From Liolophura sinensis (taxonomy: Eukaryota > Mollusca > Polyplacophora > Chitonida > Chitonidae), in contig NC_088297.1 in NCBI RefSeq assembly GCF_032854445.1, positions 23,259,127 through 23,323,126 on the forward strand: 64,000 nucleotides of DNA, read 5' to 3'. Both the position numbers and the translations under genes were made by a program. The notes under the pieces are model-generated. The model was given only the letters and a program-made list of their open reading frames with translations. It searched no databases and was not told where the DNA came from. How positions within the stretch are numbered: position 1 is the stretch's first letter; each line of letters begins with the position of its first letter. Shown piece by piece: positions 9,997-52,400 of this stretch.

Positions 9997-12900
9997 CTGA
10001 AATACACATTTCAAACCAATCATAACATCTTGCAGGAACACAGTCTTGACTGACATTGGACTGAGTTTTCAGCTAATGACTTTTAGTCAAGTTTATCTAC
10101 CTGATTCTAGTTATTTATTTATTTGATTGGTTTTTACGCCCTTTTGATTCATGTTCAGCCCTATACTTTAGAACTTTTTGGTCACAAGAGGGAGGTCAAT
10201 TCCACTGGAGGAGACAACAAGGAGTTGCTGGGATACACCCACTGCCGTCCACCAGGTACTCCAACCGAATCAGCAAAAGCTGGATCCAAACACACAAACC
10301 CATTTGTCAGCGCTTTATCTTCAGTATCAGCCGACTCAAACCAATGTAAGCCCTTACTGCTTCTCATTGAAATAGGGTTTATATGTGCGAGCAGAATGTA
10401 ATCATCTCTTAGCATAAGTAGAAAGAGCGTAATTATTTTATTGCCAATTGTACGATGGCAGCCAGCATATTAACAGATGACATGTGACAAAATGTCACAT
10501 AATTATAAGGCAAGTGATCTCTTACAAACTTCATACCAGACTGCACGAAACAGCCAAGGCTCAGAGAAGACTGGAAGCACCAAAATCGTTGAAGGAACAC
10601 CTCATGTGATCTAACAGTTGAAAGGTAATGCACCTTAACCACTCAGCCACGACTCATTCAAAGTTTAAAAATAATTTTTCAGTGATCCTGACATGATTGT
10701 AACTTTTTTTTACTAATATGGATAGCTGGAATATTGGCCAATGTTATTTTGTCATGTACCAAACAGCTGTCCCATGTCCAAATACTTATACTTTTGTCAA
10801 TAGCTGCTCTTCCAGTCAGAGGAAGGAGTGTGCACGTAGGAAAATGCAAAATACCTTAAGAGCTGAGCGGAGAACAACAACCTGGCCTGAGGGTTGGATC
10901 CATGGCTCCCCATCCACCTGTACCGGGACATCCTGCAGCAGTGTGATCCGCAGCTGTAAGAAAACACACCCGGCCAGGTATTAGCAGAAACAAACATTAG
11001 CCACAACTCAAACACTATCGGGGGAGAAATTAACAGTCAGGCCAAAATAAGACGATTTACGTTTGCTAAGGAGCATACTGATATGGTGAATGGCCTAAAA
11101 TTTTTATCCAAGCACCTCAATACTTTTTCAATTAAAGTTCAGGTAAAATGTCCAACTTAGTGTTGAGCAAAATTTTCGGTCATTTATGGAACATGCACAT
11201 AAAACATATATTCTTTTTTTTTTGTTTTCACAATTTTTTTTTCCCTCCGTTTAATTTTAATACATTTTTTTCCTAAATTCTGTAAGCCTGGAAACCTGTT
11301 TTAGCTGCCTTTTGACTGCCAACTGAGTATCTCTGAACATTGTTACTAGCTGAGTGAACACGCTTACATGTCCTCCCTGAGCAAGCCTCATGCCGGTGCG
11401 TAGCCCACTGAAGATCTGACCCATGTGCACCACGCCCGTCACCCCCACCACCTCCAGCATACCGTCGTAGTGGGTGGGCTTGTTGAACTGGTCCTCCTTC
11501 TCAGGACCCCACGGATTGGCCCCAGAACCCCAGCTATAACAACAACAACATGTATCATAAGGCATTCAGCTTTTCAGGACTGACTGCTTGACAACAAATT
11601 CCTAGCTACAACTAGCTGCGACAACAACAACAACATGAACAAAAGGCAGTCATGCCGGATTGACTACAAATCCGTAGCTTCAACAAACAGTCACTCCAAA
11701 GCAAGTCTAGTTGATGATAACATTTTAGTTTTCTATGAAGAACCTGGGAACGCCTCACACTTTAAGGAAACCAACTAAGTTTGGTGCCTAGACAGTGTGT
11801 AGATTTTAGCAAGGCAACATAAGAATATTTAATACTGAGGAATTCAGAAACTATGCCACACATGCACTTCATAGTCGAGCAGACTTACATGAGAATATTG
11901 ACTATGATACCCTCCACAGGAGAACTTACCTGAGAAAGTTGAGTATAATGATACCCTCCACAGGAGAACTTACCTGAGAATGTTCAGTATAATGATACCC
12001 TCCACAGGAGAACTTACCTGAGAATGTTCAGTATAATGATGCCCTCCACAGAAGAACTTACCTGAGAATGTTGAGTATAATGATACCCTCTACAGGAGAA
12101 CTTACCTGAGAATGATAAGTATAATGATGCCCTCCACAGAAGAACTTACCTGAGAATGTTCAGTATAATGATGCCCTCCACAGAAGAACTTACCTGAGAA
12201 TGTTGAGTATAATGATACCCTCTACAGGAGAACTTACCTGAGAATGATAAGTATAATGATGCCCTCCACAGGAGAACTTACCTGAGAATGTTCAGTATAA
12301 TGATGCCCTCCACAGAAGAACTTACCTGAGAATGTTGAGTATAATGATGCCCTCCACAGGAGAACTTACCTGAGAATGTTCAGTATAATGATACCCTCCA
12401 CAGGAGAACTTACCTGAGAATGTTCAGTATAATGATACCCTCCACAGGAGAACTTACCTGAGAATGTTCAGTATAATGATACCCTCCACAGGAGAACTTA
12501 CCTGAGAATGTTCAGTATAATGATGCCCTCCACAGGAGAACTTACCTGAGAATGTTCAGTATAATGATACCCTCCACAGAAGAACTTACCTGAGAATGTT
12601 CAGTATAATGATGCCCTCCACAGAAGAACTTACCTGAGAATGTTGAGTATAATGATACCCTCCACAGGAGAACTTACCTGAGAATGTTGAGTATAATGAT
12701 ACCCTCCACAGGAGAACTTACCTGAGAATGTTCAGTATAATGATACCCTCCACAGGAGAACTTACCTGAGAATGATAAGTATAATGATGCCCTCCACAGG
12801 AGAACTTACCTGAGAATGTTCAGTATAATGATGCCCTCCACAGAAGAACTTACCTGAGAATGTTGAGTATAATGATACCCTCCACAGGAGAACTTACCTG

Positions 12901-15900
12901 AGAATGATAAGTATAATGATACCCTCCACAGGAGAACTTACCTGAGAATGTTCAGTATAATGATACCCTCCACAGGAGAACTTACCTGAGAATGTTCAGT
13001 ATAATGATACCCTCCACAGGAGAACTTACCTGAGAATGTTGAGTATAATGATACCCTCCACAGGAGAACTTACCTGAGAAAGTTGAGTATAATGATACCC
13101 TCCACAGGAGAACTTACCTGAGAATGTTGAGTATTATGATACCCTCCACAGGAGAACTTACCTGAGAATGTTCAGTATAATGATACCCTCCACAGGAGAA
13201 CTTACCTGAGAATGATAAGTATAATGATGCCCTCCACAGGAGAACTTACCTGAGAATGTTCAGTATAATGATACCCTCCACAGGAGAACTTACCTGAGAA
13301 TGTTCAGTATAATGATACCCTCCACAGGAGAACTTACCTGAGAAAGTTGAGTATAATGATACCCTCCACAGGAGAACTTACCTGAGAATGTTCAGTATAA
13401 TGATGCCCTCCACAGGAGAACTTACCTGAGAATGTTCAGTATAATGATACCCTCCACAGGAGAACTTACCTGAGAATGTTCAGTATAATGATACCCTCCA
13501 CAGAAGAACTTACCTGAGAATGTTCAGTATAATGATGCCCTCCACAGAAGAACTTACCTGAGAATGTTGAGTATAATGATACCCTCCACAGGAGAACTTA
13601 CCTGAGAATGTTGAGTATAATGATACCCTCCACAGGAGAACTTACCTGAGAAAGTTGAGTATAATGATACCCTCCACAGGAGAACTTACCTGAGAATGTT
13701 CAGTATAATGATGCCCTCCACAGGAGAACTTACCTGAGAAAGTTGAGTATAATGATGCCCTCCACAGGAGAACTTACCTGAGAATGTTCAGTATAATGAT
13801 ACCCTCCACAGAAGAACTTACCTGAGAATGTTCAGTATAATGATGCCCTCCACAGAAGAACTTACCTGAGAATGTTGAGTATAATGATACCCTCCACAGG
13901 AGAACTTACCTGAGAATGTTGAGTATAATGATACCCTCCACAGGAGAACTTACCTGAGAATGATAAGTATAATGATGCCCTCCACAGGAGAACTTACCTG
14001 AGAATGTTCAGTATAATGATGCCCTCCACAGAAGAACTTACCTGAGAATGTTCAGTATAATGATACCCTCCACAGGAGAACTTACCTGAGAATGATAAGT
14101 ATAATGATACCCTCCACAGGAGAACTTACCTGAGAATGTTCAGTATAATGATACCCTCCACAGGAGAACTTACCTGAGAATGTTGAGTATAATGATACCC
14201 TCCACAGGAGAACTTACCTGAGAATGTTGAGTATAATGATACCCTCCACAGGAGAACTTACCTGAGAAAGTTGAGTATAATGATACCCTCCACAGGAGAA
14301 CTTACCTGAGAATGTTGAGTATAATGATACCCTCCACAGGAGAACTTACCTGAGAATGTTGAGTATTATGATACCCTCCACAGGAGAACTTACCTGAGAA
14401 TGTTCAGTATAATGATACCCTCCACAGGAGAACTTACCTGAGAATGATAAGTATAATGATGCCCTCCACAGGAGAACTTACCTGAGAATGTTCAGTATAA
14501 TGATACCCTCCACAGGAGAACTTACCTGAGAATGTTCAGTATAATGATACCCTCCACAGGAGAACTTACCTGAGAAAGTTGAGTATAATGATGCCCTCCA
14601 CAGGAGAACTTACCTGAGAATGTTCAGTATAATGATGCCCTCCACAGGAGAACTTACCTGAGAATGTTGAGTATAATGATACCCTCCACAGGAGAACTTA
14701 CCTGAGAATGTTCAGTATAATGATACCCTCCACAGGAGAATTTACCTGAGAATGTTCAGTATAATGATACCCTCCACAGGAGAACTTACCTGAGAATGTT
14801 CAGTATAATGATACCCTCCACAGGAGAACGTACCTGAGAATGTTGAGTATAATGATGCCCTCCACAGGAGAACTTACCTGAGAATGTTCAGTATAATGAT
14901 ACCCTCCACAGGAGAACTTACCTGAGAATGTTCAGTATAATGATGCCCTCCACAGGAGAACTTACCTGAGAATGTTGAGTATAATGATACCCTCCACAGA
15001 AGAACTTACCTGAGAATGTTCAGTATAATGATGCCCTCCACAGAAGAACTTACCTGAGAATGTTGAGTATAATGATACCCTCTACAGGAGAACTTACCTG
15101 AGAATGATAAGTATAATGATGCCCTCCACAGGAGAACTTACCTGAGAATGTTCAGTATAATGATGCCCTCCACAGAAGAACTTACCTGAGAATGTTCAGT
15201 ATAATGATACCCTCCACAGGAGAACTTACCTGAGAATGTTGAGTATAATGATACCCTCCACAGGAGAACTTACCTGAGAATGTTCAGTATAATGATACCC
15301 TCCACAGAAGAACTTACCTGAGAATGTTCAGTATAATGATACCCTCTACAGGAGAACTTACCTGAGAATGTTGAGTATAATGATACCCTCCACAGGAGAA
15401 CTTACCTGAGAATGATAAGTATAATGATGCCCTCCACAGGAGAACTTACCTGAGAATGTTGAGTATAATGATGCCCTCCACAGGAGAACTTACCTGAGAA
15501 TGTTCAGTATAATGATACCCTCCACAGGAGAATTTACCTGAGAATGTTCAGTATAATGATACCCTCCACAGGAGAACTTACCTGAGAAAGTTGAGTATAA
15601 GGAGAACTTACCTGAGAAAGTTGAGTATAATGATGCCCTCCACAGGAGAACTTACCTGAGAATGTTCAGTATAATGATGCCCTCCACAGAAGAACTTACC
15701 TGAGAATGTTCAGTATAATGATACCCTCTACAGGAGAACTTACCTGAGAATGTTGAGTATAATGATACCCTCCACAGGAGAACTTACCTGAGAATGTTCA
15801 GTATAATGATACCCTCCACAGAAGAACTTACCTGAGAATGTTCAGTATAATGATACCCTCTACAGGAGAACTTACCTGAGAATGTTGAGTATAATGATAC

Positions 15901-18900
15901 CCTCCACAGGAGAACTTACCTGAGAATGATAAGTATAATGATGCCCTCCACAGGAGAACTTACCTGAGAATGTTGAGTATAATGATGCCCTCCACAGGAG
16001 AACTTACCTGAGAATGTTCAGTATAATGATACCCTCCACAGGAGAATTTACCTGAGAATGTTCAGTATAATGATACCCTCCACAGGAGAACTTACCTGAG
16101 AAAGTTGAGTATAAGGAGAACTTACCTGAGAAAGTTGAGTATAATGATACCCTCCACAGGAGAACTTACCTGAGAATGTTGAGTATAATGATACCCTCCA
16201 CAGGAGAACTTACCTGAGAATGTTGAGTATAATGATGCCCTCCACAGGAGAACTTACCTGAGAATGTTCAGTATAATGATACCCTCCACAGGAGAACTTA
16301 CCTGAGAATGTTGAGTATAATGATGCCCTCCACAGGAGAACTTACCTGAGAATGTTGAGTATTATGATACCCTCCACAGGAGAACTTACCTGAGAATGTT
16401 GAGTATAATGATACCCTCCACAGGAGAACTTACCTGAGGATGTTGAGTATAATGATGCCCTCCACAGCAGAACTTACCTGAGAATGTTGAGTATAATGAT
16501 ACCCTCCACAGGAGAACTTACCTGAGAATGTTCAGTATAATGATACCCTCCACAGGAGAACTTACCTGAGAATGTTGAGTATAATGATACCCTCCACAGG
16601 AGGAAGGTCAATCTGTTTGCCGTCCACTTCAATGCGAACTACTTTGTGAAGGTCCTTACACAGACGCCGATTTACCATCTTACGAATTCCCATTCTTAAA
16701 TACACACTTTTATTATGTAGTCTGAAACACAAAATCATTTCAACACGGTTTAGTCAGACAGAAAGGATGGCCATATTGAATAGCAGACTGTTCATACAGA
16801 CTTCAAGAATGGAAAATAAAAAAAGTTTCAACTTTAAATTTCCTCAAATGTGTTGTTTTCCAAATCCTGTTTTCATTTATTTATTTGATTGGTGTTTCAC
16901 GCCTTACTCAAGAATATTGCACTTATACGATGGCGGCCAACATTATGGTGGGTGGAAACTGGGCAGAGCCCGGGGGAAACCCACGACCATCCACAGGTTG
17001 CTGGCAGACCTTCTGTTTTCATTTATTACCAGATTTACTGATGGAAAACTGTTATCCCACCACCGTCTGCAAAGGCTGTAGTATTATCACTCATAGCCAT
17101 AGCTAAATAGATTCCCTATAGATTCATGTTATGGAATCTACACGAATGATCTAGTACCACCAAGCAGTTACTTCATGTGAATGTTCAGATACCCAGAACA
17201 GTAAATGATTTGGGGGATTCCCGGTTTATTACCGATACTTCACTTTGATACGAATCCATGTGTATTCTACTGCAATCTCTCTAGTTATGGATTAAGACAT
17301 AATATGCAAATCCAGCTCTGCTATTCTTGTCAATAGCCCTGTCTGAGTTTTGAGAGACTGTATATAAGCAGTAGTAATAAGCTTACAACAACCTACATAA
17401 GCCAAAATTTCAACCCTTCGGTTGATCCTCTGTGCTGTACACTGCTACTGAAGTACTCACCTGCTATTAAATTTGTCTGGATTCTCTTCTCGTGCCATAT
17501 GAAAATCTCGCGAGAGTTCCGCATCAATGCCAAGCCCAAAGTAATTGTTCATGACAAAGATGCTTGTAGTATCTTCATTGGTGTTCGCTGAGTTTGTGGC
17601 GTTGGCAATTTCCAGTCTGGCCTCATTAGGTTTCTCTTCATTCGGATGAAATATCACTGTCCATCTGGTGAAACAAGAGAAACTACATTTAGTGCCTTGT
17701 AACCGATTGGTCGTTCCTATATTCTGTTTTCTGATTTATTTATTTATTAACTCACTGGTGTTTGTTTACTCGTCTGAATGTCATCAAGCCTCATACTATG
17801 AAATGTATTTTTGTATGCATGCTTGAGGTTTTACATCGTACTTAACAATTTCTACAATGCGACAGTAAACCTCTGACCTTTGGTAAGTTACAGACAAACT
17901 TTCCCATAGTAGGATGCACCAATAAAAACATTATAATGGAGAAAGAAAGTCGTCTTTCACCCTTTGAACCCTGGCAAGGTTTTACATAAGTGTACCCCTG
18001 ACCCTGGCCTCGCTAGCTAAAATCAATAAATTTTGTGTTTTGTAATAACTGTTGACATTATACAATTACAGCCTAATAGAGTCAAACCTTGGTAGTAATC
18101 ATTGGCAATGTATCAGCATACATAGATGTATATATATTTTCCACATATATATGGATATATACAAAATTGATAAGCTGTATTTTCAGCAACCTACTAACAG
18201 CAGGAGAGATCAGTGTAGCATTTTGTTACTTCGTTTATATATCCAAAACTTCACTTTAGTGTGATAGGAGCCAAAACAGTTCTCGGTACCAGTTCCAACA
18301 CACAAGTAAACATCACATGTGGAACACTTATATACAGTGAGATCCTTATATGGTAAGTCTGGATTATGCTGTCTAAAACGGCAGATTTTCTCCAGGCACA
18401 CAACACATCTGTGGTTAGTTGATGTGCCCTGTGACCTCTCCACAAAATGCATAGGTGTATCTGCACCACTCTGAAGGTGAATATCGCTGTGTGCAACACT
18501 GTCTGGGGTATTGGGCGCTTTTGCGCCAAAAGTTGCCCACAAGTTCCTGACACAGACTCAATGAAAGCATGGAAAGTCAGTTTCCTTTTGCCCGGAGTAC
18601 CAGTATTAGAAGGGGACAAAGTCTGATGGTTTACAAATGAATTGTGTACTGCCCACATGAAGAATTTTATAGTTAGCCGTCTGGGCCATCTGTAATGTTG
18701 TCGGCACCACTGATCATTCTTATCTGTCCCGTCTATAAATTAGTTATGTGTTTTTACAGGTTTTGAACAATTCACCTCAACACGCCTGTGTTCCTGGGTG
18801 CTGTACCTAAGCACAGTTAGCGTCACAGTCAACTTGTGTTGTTGTAACAAAATATATGGGCTTTTTGTCACACCACACTAAAGCGCCACATTTACCATTG

Positions 18901-21900: not shown

Positions 21901-24900
21901 CAAACTTTCCTACATGTAAGGTTGCACTGGTGGAAAGCACGTTCTCTTCAACGCAGGCTGAAACCTAAATGTCATCATGAACCTACATGAAAAGTACAAG
22001 AATATAGAAATTCCCTGTCCAATGTCATGATCGATTAATTTATTTATTTGACTGGTGTTTTCATGACATACCCAAGAATATTTCACTTATAGGACAGCAG
22101 CCAGCAGTATGGTGGGGAGAAACTGTGCAGAGCCCAGAGGAAACCCACGACCATCCGCTGGTTGCAGGTAGACATTCCCCCACAGGGCCAGAGAGGAAGC
22201 CAGCATGAGCTAATTCAGGATTGAGCCCTTACTTCCTGCAGTGAGGGTTTAGAGTAGGGAGGAGGTAAGACTCACCCTGGTAATGGTCCTCCGGTCTCCA
22301 GGTTAAAGACCTGATGAGGGTTGAGCAGATGTCGGAAGGAGGTGATGAGCTCCAGGCCCTGACACCCGCCACTTTTCACATTAACAAACACCAGCAGAGA
22401 ATCGTGTTCTCCGGAATCATGTGTGGCTGCACAATAACAAAGGAACAAATTTATTTATTTGACTGGTGTTTTCACCATATTCCAAAAATATTTCACCTAT
22501 ACCAAGGCAACCCAGCATTATTGTGGGACACGAAACCCAAGACCATTCGCAGGTTGCTGGCAGACCGAATACACAAAAGCATGTGAACATAAGCTAAGAT
22601 CATTGTAGCATTATCTGTACTACCATCATGGTGCCTTAGTCGTTATGTTTTTTGCCCTGTTTATGTGTCTGTCAGCAGTTTTATGGACAAGTTATACATG
22701 GAGTTTGTATGCACAGACTGGCGTTGGTAAAAGTACCTTAACAGGATATTCTGGTGGGATGAAGGATTCTTCACCATGGAGTTCCGCGCTCATGCTAAGT
22801 TATGTCAGTCATGGGGTATAACACCATACTTCTGAATATTTCATTTATAAAAAAAAAAAAAAAAGTGGCCCCTGAAAACTACGTTTTTGAACGGTATATG
22901 ACGTCCATGACGCATTTGTCACGTTGCTGAATGGTATATGATGTCCATGACGCATTTGTCACATTGCTGAACGGTATGTGATGTCCATGACACATCTGTC
23001 ACGCTGCTGAACGGTGTATGATGTCCATGACGCATCTGTCACGCTGCTGAACGGTATATGATGTCCATGACGCATCTTTCACGTTGCTGAACGGTATATG
23101 ATGTACATTACGAATCTGTCACGTTGCTGAACGGTGTATGATGTCCATGACGCATCTGTCACGCTGCTGAACGGTATATGATGTCCATGACGCATCTGTC
23201 ACGTTGCTGAACGGTATATAATGTGCATGACACATCTGTCACGTTTCTGAACAGTATATGATGTCCATGACGCATCTGTCACGTTGCTGAACGGTGTATG
23301 ATGTCCATGACGCATCTGTCACGTTGCTGAACGGTATATGATGTCCATGACGCATCTGTCACGTTGCTGAACGGTATATAATGTGCATGACACATCTGTC
23401 ACGTTTCTGAACAGTATATGATGTCCATGACGCATCTGTCACGTTGCTGAACGGTGTATGATGTCCATGACGCATTTGTCACGTTGCTGAACGGTATATG
23501 ATGTCCATGACACATCTGTCACGTTGCTGAACGGTATATAATGTCCATGACGCATCTGTCACATTGCTGAACGGTATGTGATGTCCATGACACATCTGTC
23601 ACATTGCTGAAGGGTATATAATGTCCATGACGCATCTGTCACATTGCTGAACGGTATATAATGTCCATGACGCATCTGTCACGTTGCTGAACGGTATATA
23701 ATGTCCATAACGCATTTGTCACGCTGCTGAACGGTATATAATGTCCATGACACATCTGTCACGTTGCTGAACGGTGTATGATGTCCATGACGCATCTGTC
23801 ACGTTGCTGAACGGTATATAATGTCCATGACACATCTGTCCCGTTGCTGAACGGTATGTGATGTCCATGACACATCTGTCACATTGCTGAACGGTGTATG
23901 ATGTCCATGATGCATCTGTCACGTTGCTGAACGGTATATGATGTCCATGACGCATCTGTCACGCTGCTGAACGGTATATGATGTCCATGACACATCTGTC
24001 ACGTTGCTGAACGGTATATAATGTCCATGACGCATCTGTCGCATTGCTGAACGGTATGTGATGTCCATGACACATCTGTCACATTGCTGAAGGGTATATA
24101 ATGTCCATGACGCATCTGTCACATTGCTGAACGGTATATAATGTCCATGACGCATCTGTCACGTTGCTGAACGGTATATAATGTCCATAACACATTTGTC
24201 ACGCTGCTGAACGGTATATAATGTCCATGACACATCTGTCACGTTGCTGAACGGTGTATGATGTCCATGACGCATCTGTCACGTTGCTGAACGGTATATA
24301 ATGTCCATGACACATCTGTCCCGTTGCTGAACGGTATGTGATGTCCATGACACATCTGTCACATTGCTGAATGGTGTATGATGTCCATGATGCATCTGTC
24401 ACGTTGCTGAACGGTATGTGATGTCCATGACACATCTGTCACATTGCTGAACGGTGTATGATGTCCATGATGCATCTGTCACGTTGCTGAACGGTATATA
24501 ATGTCCATAACGCATTTGTCACGTTGCTGAACGGTATATGATGTCCATGACGCACCTGTCACGTTGCTGAACAGTATATAATGTCCATAACGCATTTGTC
24601 ACGTTGCTATATGATGTATATGATGTCCAACCTTCATGTAAGACCGATTCTATTTGCAGAATGTCTAAATGTCAAACACTGCATAAAGGTCTGAATGTAC
24701 CTTCTAGAAGCAAACTGATTATCATATTTATACCATACTCAGGTTGTTTTTTTACAATGATCATTATTAAAATGAATATTATTATTATTATTATTAATGC
24801 GTTAACTTACCTGTATATTCGGCAGCAACATAACAAGAAGACCCTTATAATCGAAGTAGCCATCTTTAAGGATATTGAAAGCACGTGCAGCTTTTTCAGC

Positions 24901-27900
24901 ATTCATGTAGACGAGGACCAGTGCACCATATTCATAATATATCACATCAAAGCTTGACCATTTATTAGCTGAAACCAAAAGCATAATGATCCAGATTAGT
25001 CACTGTACGAGCTGAAATGTCAAACTAAACGTTAAAACACTTGCTACAAAGGGATTACAGATGTAACCATCTATACAAAACGCCATACAAAAGTTTAAAA
25101 CAGGAAAAATGAGCATATAATTTTGCTGCTGTGTATTGCCATACTGAAGAATTGGCGCAACGGCAGACAGTTTCATGAGTGACGGGAACTAGAGTGCCCA
25201 GCATAAACCACTATCCTGTGGCAAGTTACTGACAAACATTCCCGTGACGTACAGAATATGCGCACAATGTCAATCCTATCTCTTGCTCTCACTTGTAATA
25301 GAAGGCTATGCATGTGTGGTTAGTCCAAAGGGCCATAACCCTGAGTGTGGGAAGCTGGCCAGTAGAGGGCTCAGGGGAAGAGAGGAGCATGGGAGAGGGA
25401 GAGGATGACCAGCAGTTTTTATGTGTGTATGGTGGTGGCCACATGTGTTTTGTAGTGTCTTGTAAAGGAAGTCTTTTGTGGTGAATACAAGGATTACATG
25501 TACCCGTACTGGATGTGTTGTTGACTCTTTTCATGGTAGCAGAGCGTGGTTGCGGATTCCGGAAGAAAGAAAAAGTGGAGGACATGTGGTAATAAAAAAA
25601 CTGTTGTTGTTGCTGGAGCATAGGCTAGTTTTACCCACTGCTGAAAGAAAAGTCCTCCACACGTGTTAGTTTGCACAAACTGCCACATGAGGTTACTGTC
25701 ACCAAGGATCCACAAGCAGTGGGGGGAAAAGAAGAGAGCACATGATAGGATAAAAGTTTACCAGATATACAGAAGAAAACTGCTCACATACTGTGAAACA
25801 CTTTTTTTAACCTGTATTATTTTAAAGCAAGCTTACAGTCAGAGGAAAGTTGACACTTGCGTACATCCTCCCAATTCATAAAGTCACCAACAAGCCTCAA
25901 GACGCTGAATACAACACCACCTCTGATCTTGCGGCAGTTCCAAAAGAGCAGGTTCTGGGTCTTGAACCCTCATTCCAATAATAACTTCTGGACCATCATG
26001 GACCCCTAAGGCATACCAGAATGTCTATTTTCTGTCTCCTTGTAATGCTAACATTTCCTTTCTGTTTTTTTTTTTTTTTTTTGGCTTTTAACAGAACTTC
26101 TTCATTTCTGTCTCAAATGTTAACTTCTTTAAAATCTGAATCTTTTTTCATGAGACAGAAAAAAGAAAAATTACTCTATCAATCTACCCTATGTTTTTTC
26201 CTGATAAGAGTTCGGTCACCTGTAACAAAGGATTTCTCAAGGAAGGCCTAACCATATTGAAATGCTTAAGTGAACCAACCTTTGCCAACAATATCAATAA
26301 GTATTTTTTCATACTGCCTCTGAGAGAGGCCTGAGGGTAGATTGCCAACGTAAAGCGAGACAGCCGGCCCATGGGGGTCCTCCTTCTGCTGGAGGTAAAA
26401 CCTGGTCATACGGTTCTGTCGTAGGGATTCCTGAAAAACAAACAAAGAGGAGTTCACAGGTGTTCTATGATGTTACTTTCTGACCTATACCACCTTTCTG
26501 GGAGAATTTTCACTTTTATTATTTATTGTAACCTCCTTTGCGAATGATGCCACTTCATGGCACTTTTCTTCAATTTTATTCTGTGTAAGCCATGGTGCTA
26601 GGGGCCTGTAATTTGCTATTACACATAAACAGTTGGATTAAAACCCTAACTGAGGTAAATTGACAGGAGGGTAAATTTCACCCATTATGTGTGACCATTT
26701 GCCAGCTATCACATTGTCGTCTCTGCTCTGGTTTTACTGTCTATTCTGTAAGCATTCTACAATACTGTAACATGATTCACTATAAACAATATGAAGTTTT
26801 ATGAGAGTGACCCCTCTACGGGTTGAAGACATTTACATTTCCCTGCAATGTTACACTGGTGATTTTACACAGTCGTCAAGAACATGTCATTCACTGGAAG
26901 ATTTCATAATGGTTTTACAACCATGAAGAACTTGAAAGACAAAAAACACAATGCGATATTTCAAATGTTTGCTTGCTTTGTTTAATGTCACTTTTCAACA
27001 CAATGTCAGTCATATCATGATATTCTTATATTAAAGGCCAAGCTCCGTGCCAAGATATTTTCAGAGGTGTCTCACTAAAATGCTATGCTGAAGACAGCAG
27101 ACACTACATTCCTCTTTATCAGCAGGGGCCAGTTGATCAAAAGCCTATTAAAAGTAAACCCTGGCTTAAATCCTATCCTCGTCTCATTCTAATACAACCA
27201 CATGAAATTTCAGTCTGGACTGAAGTTAAGACACTTTTGAACTAGCCCCTGAGTATGCAAACCAGTACATCATTTGGTACCAAGATCCAAATTCAACAAT
27301 ACACTTGGCATGAACTAGCATCTGACAAGTTGGAAATGAGCAGCAGGGCAAGGATAATGTCCTGCATGAAATAGTGTTTTGACAGGGACGAACTGTTTGG
27401 TACAGGACGAGCTTGCCATGTAACCAATGTTGCAGTTTCGTAATACAGTGGGTGGCTGGGAATATTGCCGGTTATGTCCTGAATCAACTCTAAGGTTTAT
27501 CCAGATTTGATCTGGATACTAGATGCGGTGGGGACTTACTTTCCTGCTCTGTTGGATGAGTTGCCACGGTTTGTCATTGGGCGCCAATTCCTTCTCGGTG
27601 ACGCCTTTGTCCAAGAGAACTTCTATAAGGCTGTACTTAGCAGGAGACGTGCCCTGTGAACAAATACGCAAACGATCAGTTCTCTTTCCACTATTTACAC
27701 ACTGATAGCGTACATATCTATACACTGCATTTGCCCTTGACATATGCCCCAAAATGATCAGAAAATATAACTTTTGGTGCTGAAACAGTAGATGTCATGC
27801 CAACTTCTAAGCAGACCTCAAAACAGATCAAAGAAGCTCTCAAAATTTGGCAAAATAAGTAATTTAGATATAAGGTAAACGTAACAAATTTATACGAAAT

Positions 27901-50758: not shown

Positions 50759-50983
50759 CATGTGGGTTTAGCCTGTGGAGCTGGAGATGTATCCCTGAAA
50801 AGCCTTTAGACATACACTGTACACATGTAGAGATGTTCTCATTCATGTACATTAATTATTTACATCAACCACAGTCACTATACATTATCAGCCATACTGT
50901 AGATATGATGATGTAGATATGATAATGAACCCCAGTTCAAGGTTTAGACACTGGAGGTACTGATGTTTCATTCATGCATAGTA

Positions 50984-52400
50984 ACAAGTCACAACTCTGC
51001 ATGTATGTTCATTCCTGTACACAGACCACAGTCGTCACAAACCTTAAACCATAATGTATGGGAGTGGCCAGTCATGGCTTTAGCCACCGGAGGTGTAGTA
51101 GAGGTTTCAATCGTGCATAGTAACAACAGTCACAACTCTGCATGTATGTTCATTCCTGTACACAGACCACACAGTCGTCACAAACCTTAACCATAATGTA
51201 TAGGTGTGGTCAGTCATGGCTTTAGCCACCGGAGGTGTAGTAGAGGTTTCAATCGTGCATAGTAACAACAGTCACTGCTGTGCATGTATGTTCATTCCTG
51301 TACACAGACCACACAGTCGTCACAAACCTTAAACCATAATGTATGGGTGTGGTCAGTCATGGCTTTAGCCACCGGAGGTGTAGTAGAGGTTTCAATCGTG
51401 CATAGTAACAACAGTCACTGCTGTGCATGTATGTTCATTCCTGTACACAGACCACACAGTCGTCACAAACCTTAAACCATAATGTATGGGTGTGGTCAGT
51501 CATGGCTTTAGCCACCGGAGGTGTAGTAGAGGTTTCAATCGTGCATAGTAACAACAGTCACAACTCTGCATGTATGTTCATTCCTGTACACAGACCACAC
51601 AGTCGTCACAAACCTTAACCATAATGTATAGGTGTGGTCAGTCATGGCTTTAGCCACCGGAGGTGTAGTAGAGGTTTCAATCGTGCATAGTAACAACAGT
51701 CACTGCTGTGCATGTATGTTCATTCCTGTACACAGACCACACAGTTGTTACAAACCTTAACCATAATGTATGGGTGTGGTCAGTCATGGCTTTAGCCACC
51801 GGAGGTGTAGTAGAGGTTTCAATCGTGCATAGTAACAACAGTCACTGCTGTGCATGTATGTTCATTCCTGTACACAGACCACACAGTCGTCACAAACCTA
51901 AAACCTTAATGTATAAGTGTGGTCAGTCATGGCTTTAGCCACCGGAGGTGTAGTAGAGGTTTCAATCGTGCATAGTAACAACAGTCACAACTGTTCATGT
52001 ATCTTCATTCCTGTACACAGACCACACAGTCGTCACAAACCTTAAACCATAATGTATGGGTGTGGTCAGTCATGGCTTTAGCCACTGGAGGTGTAGAGGT
52101 TTCCATCGTACATAGTAACAACAGTCACTGCTGTGCATGTATGTTCATTCCTGTACACAGACCACACAGTCGTCACAAACCTTAAACCATAATGTATGGG
52201 TGTGGTCAGTCATGGCTTTAGCCACCAGAGGTGTAGTAGAGGTTTCAATCGTGCATAGTAACAACAGTCACTGCTGTGCATGTATGTTCATTCCTGTACA
52301 CAGACCACACAGTTGTTACAAACCTTAAACCTTAATGTATAAGTGTGGTCAGTCATGGCTTTAGCCACTGGAGGTGTTGAGGTTTCAATCGTGCATGGTC
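50984..52400. repeat. 143-bp satellite array, about 10 copies
   Basis: The unit contains CATGTATGTTCATTCCTGTA, CACAGACCACACAGTCGTCA, GTCAGTCATGGCTTTAGCC and GGTTTCAATCGTGCATAGTA. Spacing between copies is 143 bp (for example 51304 to 51447). Copies differ mainly at CACAACTCTG/CACTGCTGTG before CATGTATG. Degenerate copies continue to about 52680. Confidence 0.95.

Follow-up and report, generated by a model that had tools for sequence, protein, structure and literature searches.

A minisatellite of splice donors at an exon/intron junction of a diacylglycerol kinase theta gene, and similar arrays in the same genome

How an intron can come to begin with about 107 copies of its own 5' splice site, and what those copies do, is the question raised by a locus on the minus strand of a 64,000-nt stretch of Liolophura sinensis DNA (G000:C3:23259127-23323126 of a 609-Mb assembly, referred to as the window). 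Here the end of one exon of a diacylglycerol kinase (DGK) theta gene is followed by tandem copies of a 44-nt unit which joins exon and intron sequence. We consider it likely that the array is a minisatellite which was born at the junction, grew into the intron and is tolerated through exon definition by the nearest donor, the extra donors being passengers.

Assignment of the gene to DGKQ, as proposed in the initial annotation, is confirmed. Six of ten minus-strand pieces of the window matched Pfam families, namely RBD_DGKtheta, RA, C1_1, DAGK_cat and DAGK_acc (twice), a domain set which identifies the gene as a DGK theta orthologue. The exon at 16721-16566 corresponds to DAGK_acc profile positions 28-83 in the assembly search and 38-82 in the Pfam run on the window pieces, with the exon starting at 11533 corresponding to positions 82-147 and 85-148, respectively. 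The exon boundary at donor 16565 is therefore supported, as DAGK_acc continues from 28-83 to 82-147 across the junction. The intervening intron measures 5,032 nt, comprising 4,686 nt of array and a remainder of 346 nt (Table 1).

Tandem Repeats Finder places the array at 11904-16602 with a period of 44, 107.4 copies and 92% matches. The unit consists of the last 35 nt of exon 16721-16566 plus GTAAGTTCT, and donors are found at the exon's own position, 16565, and at 107 further minus-strand positions, the last at 11888, with spacings (n = 107) of 44 nt in 104 cases, 30 nt in two and 41 nt in one. The donor reads CAGGTAAGT (CAG/GTAAGT, the slash marking the exon/intron junction) in 103 of the 108, CAGGTAAAT (CAG/GTAAAT) in three, and CAGGTACGT (CAG/GTACGT) and CATGTAAGT (CAT/GTAAGT, in the distal degenerate copy) in one each. 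GT is present in all 108 donors and AG/GT in 107, the distal donor being AT/GT. The array thus has the layout of a minisatellite straddling a 5' splice site, of the type known from the human genes CBS and IFI6, with a unit laid across the junction and donor-like sequences in its copies. The initial description of about 107 tandem copies at 11880-16602, with a 44-bp unit of 35 exon and 9 intron bases in which GTAAGT is kept nearly throughout, agrees with these counts, and the proposed derivation from the exon's own boundary is upheld by identity of the exon tail with the array consensus at 34 of 35 positions.

Variation among copies is limited. Ten of the 44 columns are variable in 105 of the 108 copies (copies 12, 24 and 108 being left out for their length), and 20 distinct 44-nt unit windows are present. 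A 9-unit block at copies 12-20, the first unit of which is a 30-nt copy, recurs at copies 24-32, the longest recurrence in 300 shuffles being 6 units, and growth therefore involved multi-unit duplication. The number of copies given here comes from a single assembly, and long arrays are hard to assemble, such that an assembler might have inflated a small true number of copies. This we regard as extremely improbable, as the 20 distinct unit windows follow a non-random order with a 9-unit duplication, both flanks lie in one contig and many similar arrays occur elsewhere. An exon-plus-donor query gave 104 assembly matches, all 104 at the DGK theta locus, a missing match being no proof of absence.

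The choice of donor would have consequences for the mRNA. The exon ends in phase 2 and read-through of donor 16565 therefore meets an in-frame TAA (CTC AGG TAA), the stop beginning 1 nt into the intron. Only donor 16565 leaves the DGK theta reading frame intact; use of any later donor would add units and TAA. The sequence of events which we propose begins with a tandem duplication across the exon/intron junction, as shown by the anatomy and by the likeness of unit and exon tail, and proceeds through growth into the intron to ∼107 copies, which the 9-unit block indicates was partly by multi-unit duplication. In defining the 156-nt exon, the spliceosome would most likely choose the donor closest to the exon's 3' splice site; the array would be tolerated because of this, and the other copies would therefore leave with the intron. 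By analogy with IFI6, low-level use of the closest one or two extra donors is probable; the resulting mRNA would carry the in-frame TAA and be expected to undergo nonsense-mediated decay. All the extra donors would be passengers, with no selection detectable in their sequence as far as the tests described below can show.

The same features could be read as those of a regulator, the array serving as a landing strip for the U1 small nuclear ribonucleoprotein (snRNP) or as a donor-competition device which tunes or lowers DGK theta expression by copy number, more copies giving more premature-stop mRNA. A stop is met whenever the first donor is read through, and 103 of 108 donors are CAG/GTAAGT, a sequence fully complementary to the 5' end of U1. 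Furthermore, a 31-bp variable number tandem repeat (VNTR) of the same layout in human CBS is, by the title of Lievers 2001, reportedly associated with reduced CBS activity.

Runs of three exact CAGGTAAGT words, with 15-45 nt between neighbours, number 264 genome-wide versus 158 for a reversed control word, and among the matches listed, clustered by eye, at least 41 separate CAGGTAAGT arrays are present, including that of DGK theta. The other 40 were retrieved; each contains, by Tandem Repeats Finder, an array in which two or more donors are exact. In eight of the 40, a coding exon with recognisable homology reaches the first donor or runs into the first copies (Table 1). At 24 of the 40 loci, 30 open reading frames (ORFs) of at least 30 codons reach the array and all were scanned against Pfam (one extra ORF of L005 being left out; 15 loci had none), giving six matches at E ≤ 0.001; of 34 further ORFs ending no more than 100 nt before the array, seven were scanned with Pfam at E ≤ 1 and none matched at 0.001. 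At least one ORF was scanned at 30 of the 40 loci. NCBIfam, applied to ten chosen ORFs, identified HflX and a weak match to deoxyribose-phosphate aldolase (deoC, L012; E = 0.0013), which had no match in the PDB and is not counted. A PDB search with six ORFs matched L020 and L009; L022 gave only a designed protein (0.0065) and HIRA (0.067), and L012, L043 and L013 were without match. Control ORFs, 14 in a first set and 29 in a second of which 10 were Pfam-scanned, gave no matches, numbers too small for a test of enrichment.

In six of these arrays, those in which the exon contributes a longer stretch to the unit, the exon tail was set against the array consensus, and it is identical or nearly so: 30/30 positions in RNA polymerase III RPC1, 28/28 in GH31, 19/20 in RIC1, 31/31 in BTB, 28/30 in Roc and 20/21 in the BTK-motif gene, the tail lengths being set by the analyst and the RIC1 and BTB values resting on four copies each. 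Such agreement is what an origin of the unit at the exon boundary predicts. The exon stretch within the unit is short in the SMAD gene (6 nt) and in the aldolase (12 nt). Phases and first donors of these exons were assigned by eye. Over nine exon-edge arrays other than DGK theta (the eight counted plus the weak aldolase), translation past the donor would meet its first stop after 1 to 80 nt, except in GH31 (L011, period 39) and BTB (L031, period 45), in which the period is a multiple of three and the frame stays open across several units, for 275 and 237 nt respectively. Use of a later donor in these two genes could lengthen the protein rather than truncate it.

Additional observations were made on the arrays. 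The exon-proximal donor differs from the array consensus GTAAGT in L011 (GTATGT), L024 (GTATGT) and L009 (GTAAAT). L015 and L016, which lie ∼67 kb apart on C2, have closely similar 40-bp donor units and similar preceding sequence, which we take to be a short interspersed nuclear element (SINE), and the pair looks like a duplicated or mobile-element-linked repeat. At G000:C1:1413360-1415608, CAGGTAAGT repeats occur mostly at 82-nt spacing, longer than the gap search covered. The units of L057 (C9:14544900-14548500), a control array for the reversed word, also carry CAG/GTAAGA and are preceded by an exon-like ORF without a family match.

In a selected U1-binding array the donors should be more constrained than their neighbours, and by column comparison this was not observed. 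In the DGK theta array, two of nine donor columns are variable versus eight of the 35 others (Fisher P = 1; the same 105 copies). Across 27 arrays of at least ten copies, DGK theta included, mean divergence is 0.088 in the donor and 0.088 in the rest of the unit, the donor being lower in 15 of 27 (P = 0.56), even though arrays were picked by exact donors, a bias toward donor conservation. Divergence was measured in 36 of the 41 arrays, five with a period under 22 or over 60 being skipped; the consensus window of L012 contains no donor, and the consensus of L005, L013, L021, L022, L033 and L042 differs from CAGGTAAGT. Exact donors are lost in more diverged arrays, with 9 of 21 copies exact in RPC1 and 19 of 55 in the BTK-motif gene, where CAT/GTAAGT is commonest. 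Selection on the donors is thus unsupported both in the DGK theta array and in the 27-array comparison, and the roles suggested initially for the kept donors, as a U1 sponge, in suppression of polyadenylation or in slowed splicing, are without support. Recurrence in unrelated genes (SMAD, RPC1, GH31, RIC1 and others) also fits a by-product better than a regulator of DGK theta, which we therefore consider unlikely. Judged by their sequence, the donors resemble passengers carried along as an ordinary minisatellite grew, not a selected U1 sponge, with donor competition among copies a possible effect.

Arrays might nevertheless be born preferentially at donors, or be purged from them. The word CAGGTAAGT occurs 9,807 times genome-wide and its reversal 4,854 times (ratio 2.0), and among the matches listed up to C10:16.2 Mb, clustered by eye, at least 31 arrays of the former are found versus 14 of the latter (2.2). 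For AAGGTAAGT, 7,537 words compare with 10,164 reversed, and 14 arrays with 13 among the matches listed up to C10:1.4 Mb. Array numbers thus roughly follow word frequency, with neither clear seeding nor clear purging. Preferential birth at donors was rejected, as counts track words for CAGGTAAGT; AAGGTAAGT leans slightly to donors in a small sample.

Several results weigh against a purely passive minisatellite. Raw AAGGTAAGT matches number 127 versus 68 reversed, and arrays per word are ∼1.4 times the control, albeit in a small sample; the list of donor arrays may miss some beyond C3, and the word counts include the arrays' own copies. Counted per copy, divergence in the DGK theta array is 0.012 in the donor and 0.040 in the rest, the copies not being independent, and donors which are cleaner by this measure suggest that weak constraint is possible. 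Finally, six of the ten DGK theta variants are synonymous in the exon frame, where a fraction of 0.26 is expected (P = 0.025, or 0.034 with transitions weighted). A looser count gave 8 of 19 (expected 0.25). Coding constraint on the copies, on the idea that a unit lies in the exon first and shifts into the intron afterwards, was not adopted, as six further arrays gave no such hint (18 of 84 synonymous, 17.7 expected).

A different route to tolerance is suggested by the unit itself. The unit runs from GTAAGT to CAG, and any kept stretch of units would therefore be bounded like a GT-AG intron, such that recursive or nested splicing could afterwards excise the retained units, leaving no trace in the mRNA. 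The juxtaposition of AG and donor which defines a recursive-splicing ratchet point is present at 107 of the 108 donors. However, inspection by eye, made with no acceptor model, revealed neither a clear branch point nor a long pyrimidine tract before CAG, and a single 44-nt unit is short for an animal intron. Ratchet points in Drosophila are described in PMC8605326 as an acceptor AG directly followed by a donor, as in the DGK theta units; they are described mainly in long introns, whereas the DGK theta units carry no sign of conservation and their acceptor is only putative. PMC4974935 cites tandem duplication of AGGT-containing exon segments as a route of intron gain (the Rogers 1989 model, ATP2A1 and 24-bp repeats in fission yeast), in which, as here, each AG/GT copy is a potential acceptor plus donor. 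Unlike that situation, the DGK theta segment was already at an existing junction; thus, an old intron grew and no new intron arose. We consider such self-correction of the DGK theta transcript very unlikely. Its generalisation is equally doubtful, namely that 5'-splice-site minisatellites are a recurrent class of self-erasing intron extensions, tolerated because unit-to-unit re-splicing would restore the same mRNA whichever of up to 108 donors goes first, with array length tuning the delay and the amount of surviving mRNA.

With the junction-born minisatellite preferred, its novelty can be assessed. The architecture had been termed highly unusual, which is too strong: the layout is shared with the CBS VNTR, splice donors repeated as a minisatellite are reported, by the title of Turri, Cuin and Porter 1995, in the human interferon-induced gene IFI6 (G1P3, IFI-6-16), and at least eight further exon-edge cases exist in the present genome. 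How one of several identical 5' splice sites is chosen has long been asked, usually of minigenes with two or three copies. The CBS repeat, c.1444_1467+7(16_21), comprises by its name 24 exon and 7 intron bases in 16-21 copies (PMC2630376); it resembles the DGK theta array in that the unit straddles the junction with a donor position in each copy, and differs in copy number (107 in DGK theta) and in its known polymorphism. IFI6 resembles DGK theta in carrying splice donors in a minisatellite. According to PMC4526556, two repeat units farther downstream function there as additional donors, with three mRNAs as the outcome, a reported use which contrasts with the DGK theta array, characterised here by its sequence. 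The open-licence literature searched, in listings and a few passages, yielded no array of such size at a 5' splice site and no genome with a whole set of them, from which we do not claim that nothing larger is in print. The kind is already known; the copy number and the recurrence within one genome are new. Combined, the DGK theta locus and its relatives form a natural series of ∼5 to 107 copies in which unit variants partly label the donors, and long RNA reads on such a series could reveal how far from an exon a donor is still usable. The presence of arrays at the edges of recognisable exons suggests that nearest-donor exon definition may be very robust.

Table 1. Features of the DGK theta locus (positions in the window) and families recognised at the edges of other donor arrays (locus handles)
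Feature	Location	Strand	Evidence
Part of upstream DGK theta exon (DAGK_acc profile 1-34)	17454..17555	-	Pfam DAGK_acc match in assembly
156-nt exon in phase 2 at either end; its terminal 35 nt form unit copy 1; coding sequence ends in AG	16566..16721	-	Frame, TTTCAG acceptor and CAG/GTAAGT donor by eye; DAGK_acc
Exon-proximal donor CAG/GTAAGTTCT	16557..16568	-	Donor count
Tandem array of 44-nt unit (35 nt of exon, 9 nt of intron), with 108 donors when that of the exon is included	11880..16600	-	Tandem Repeats Finder and donor count
Shortened 30-nt copy (copy 12)	16096..16125	-	Donor spacing
Shortened 30-nt copy (copy 24), opens second copy of 9-unit block	15582..15611	-	Donor spacing and unit order
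Degenerate last copy of 41 nt with donor CAT/GTAAGTCTG, bordering older intron sequence	11880..11929	-	Donor spacing
Rest of intron, 346 nt, 3' end TTGTTGTTGTTATAG	11534..11879	-	By eye and length count
Following exon, first bases C TGG GGT...; 11350 marks where the homology match stops and need not be the exon's own end	11350..11533	-	DAGK_acc; acceptor by eye
GH31	L011		Pfam 7.2e-14
MH2 as in SMADs	L018		Pfam 3e-11
RIC1	L024		Pfam 1.4e-10
BTB	L031		Pfam 1.3e-12
Roc	L041		Pfam 2.4e-5, slightly under curated cut-off
BTK motif	L042		Pfam 7.9e-6
HflX/GTPBP6	L020		NCBIfam 4.9e-13 as fragment; PDB search 2.3e-11
RNA polymerase III RPC1	L009		PDB search 7.9e-9

Other tandem repeats are present in the window. 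A 40-bp minisatellite of 43.7 copies (Tandem Repeats Finder) at 22881-24629 apparently occupies another DGK theta intron, lying between DGK-exon-like ORFs near 22272-22454 (no Pfam match) and 24802-24999. Positions 1-1873 contain a 33-bp minisatellite, and a 143-bp unit is repeated ∼10 times at 50965-52396 with 94% matches (Tandem Repeats Finder).

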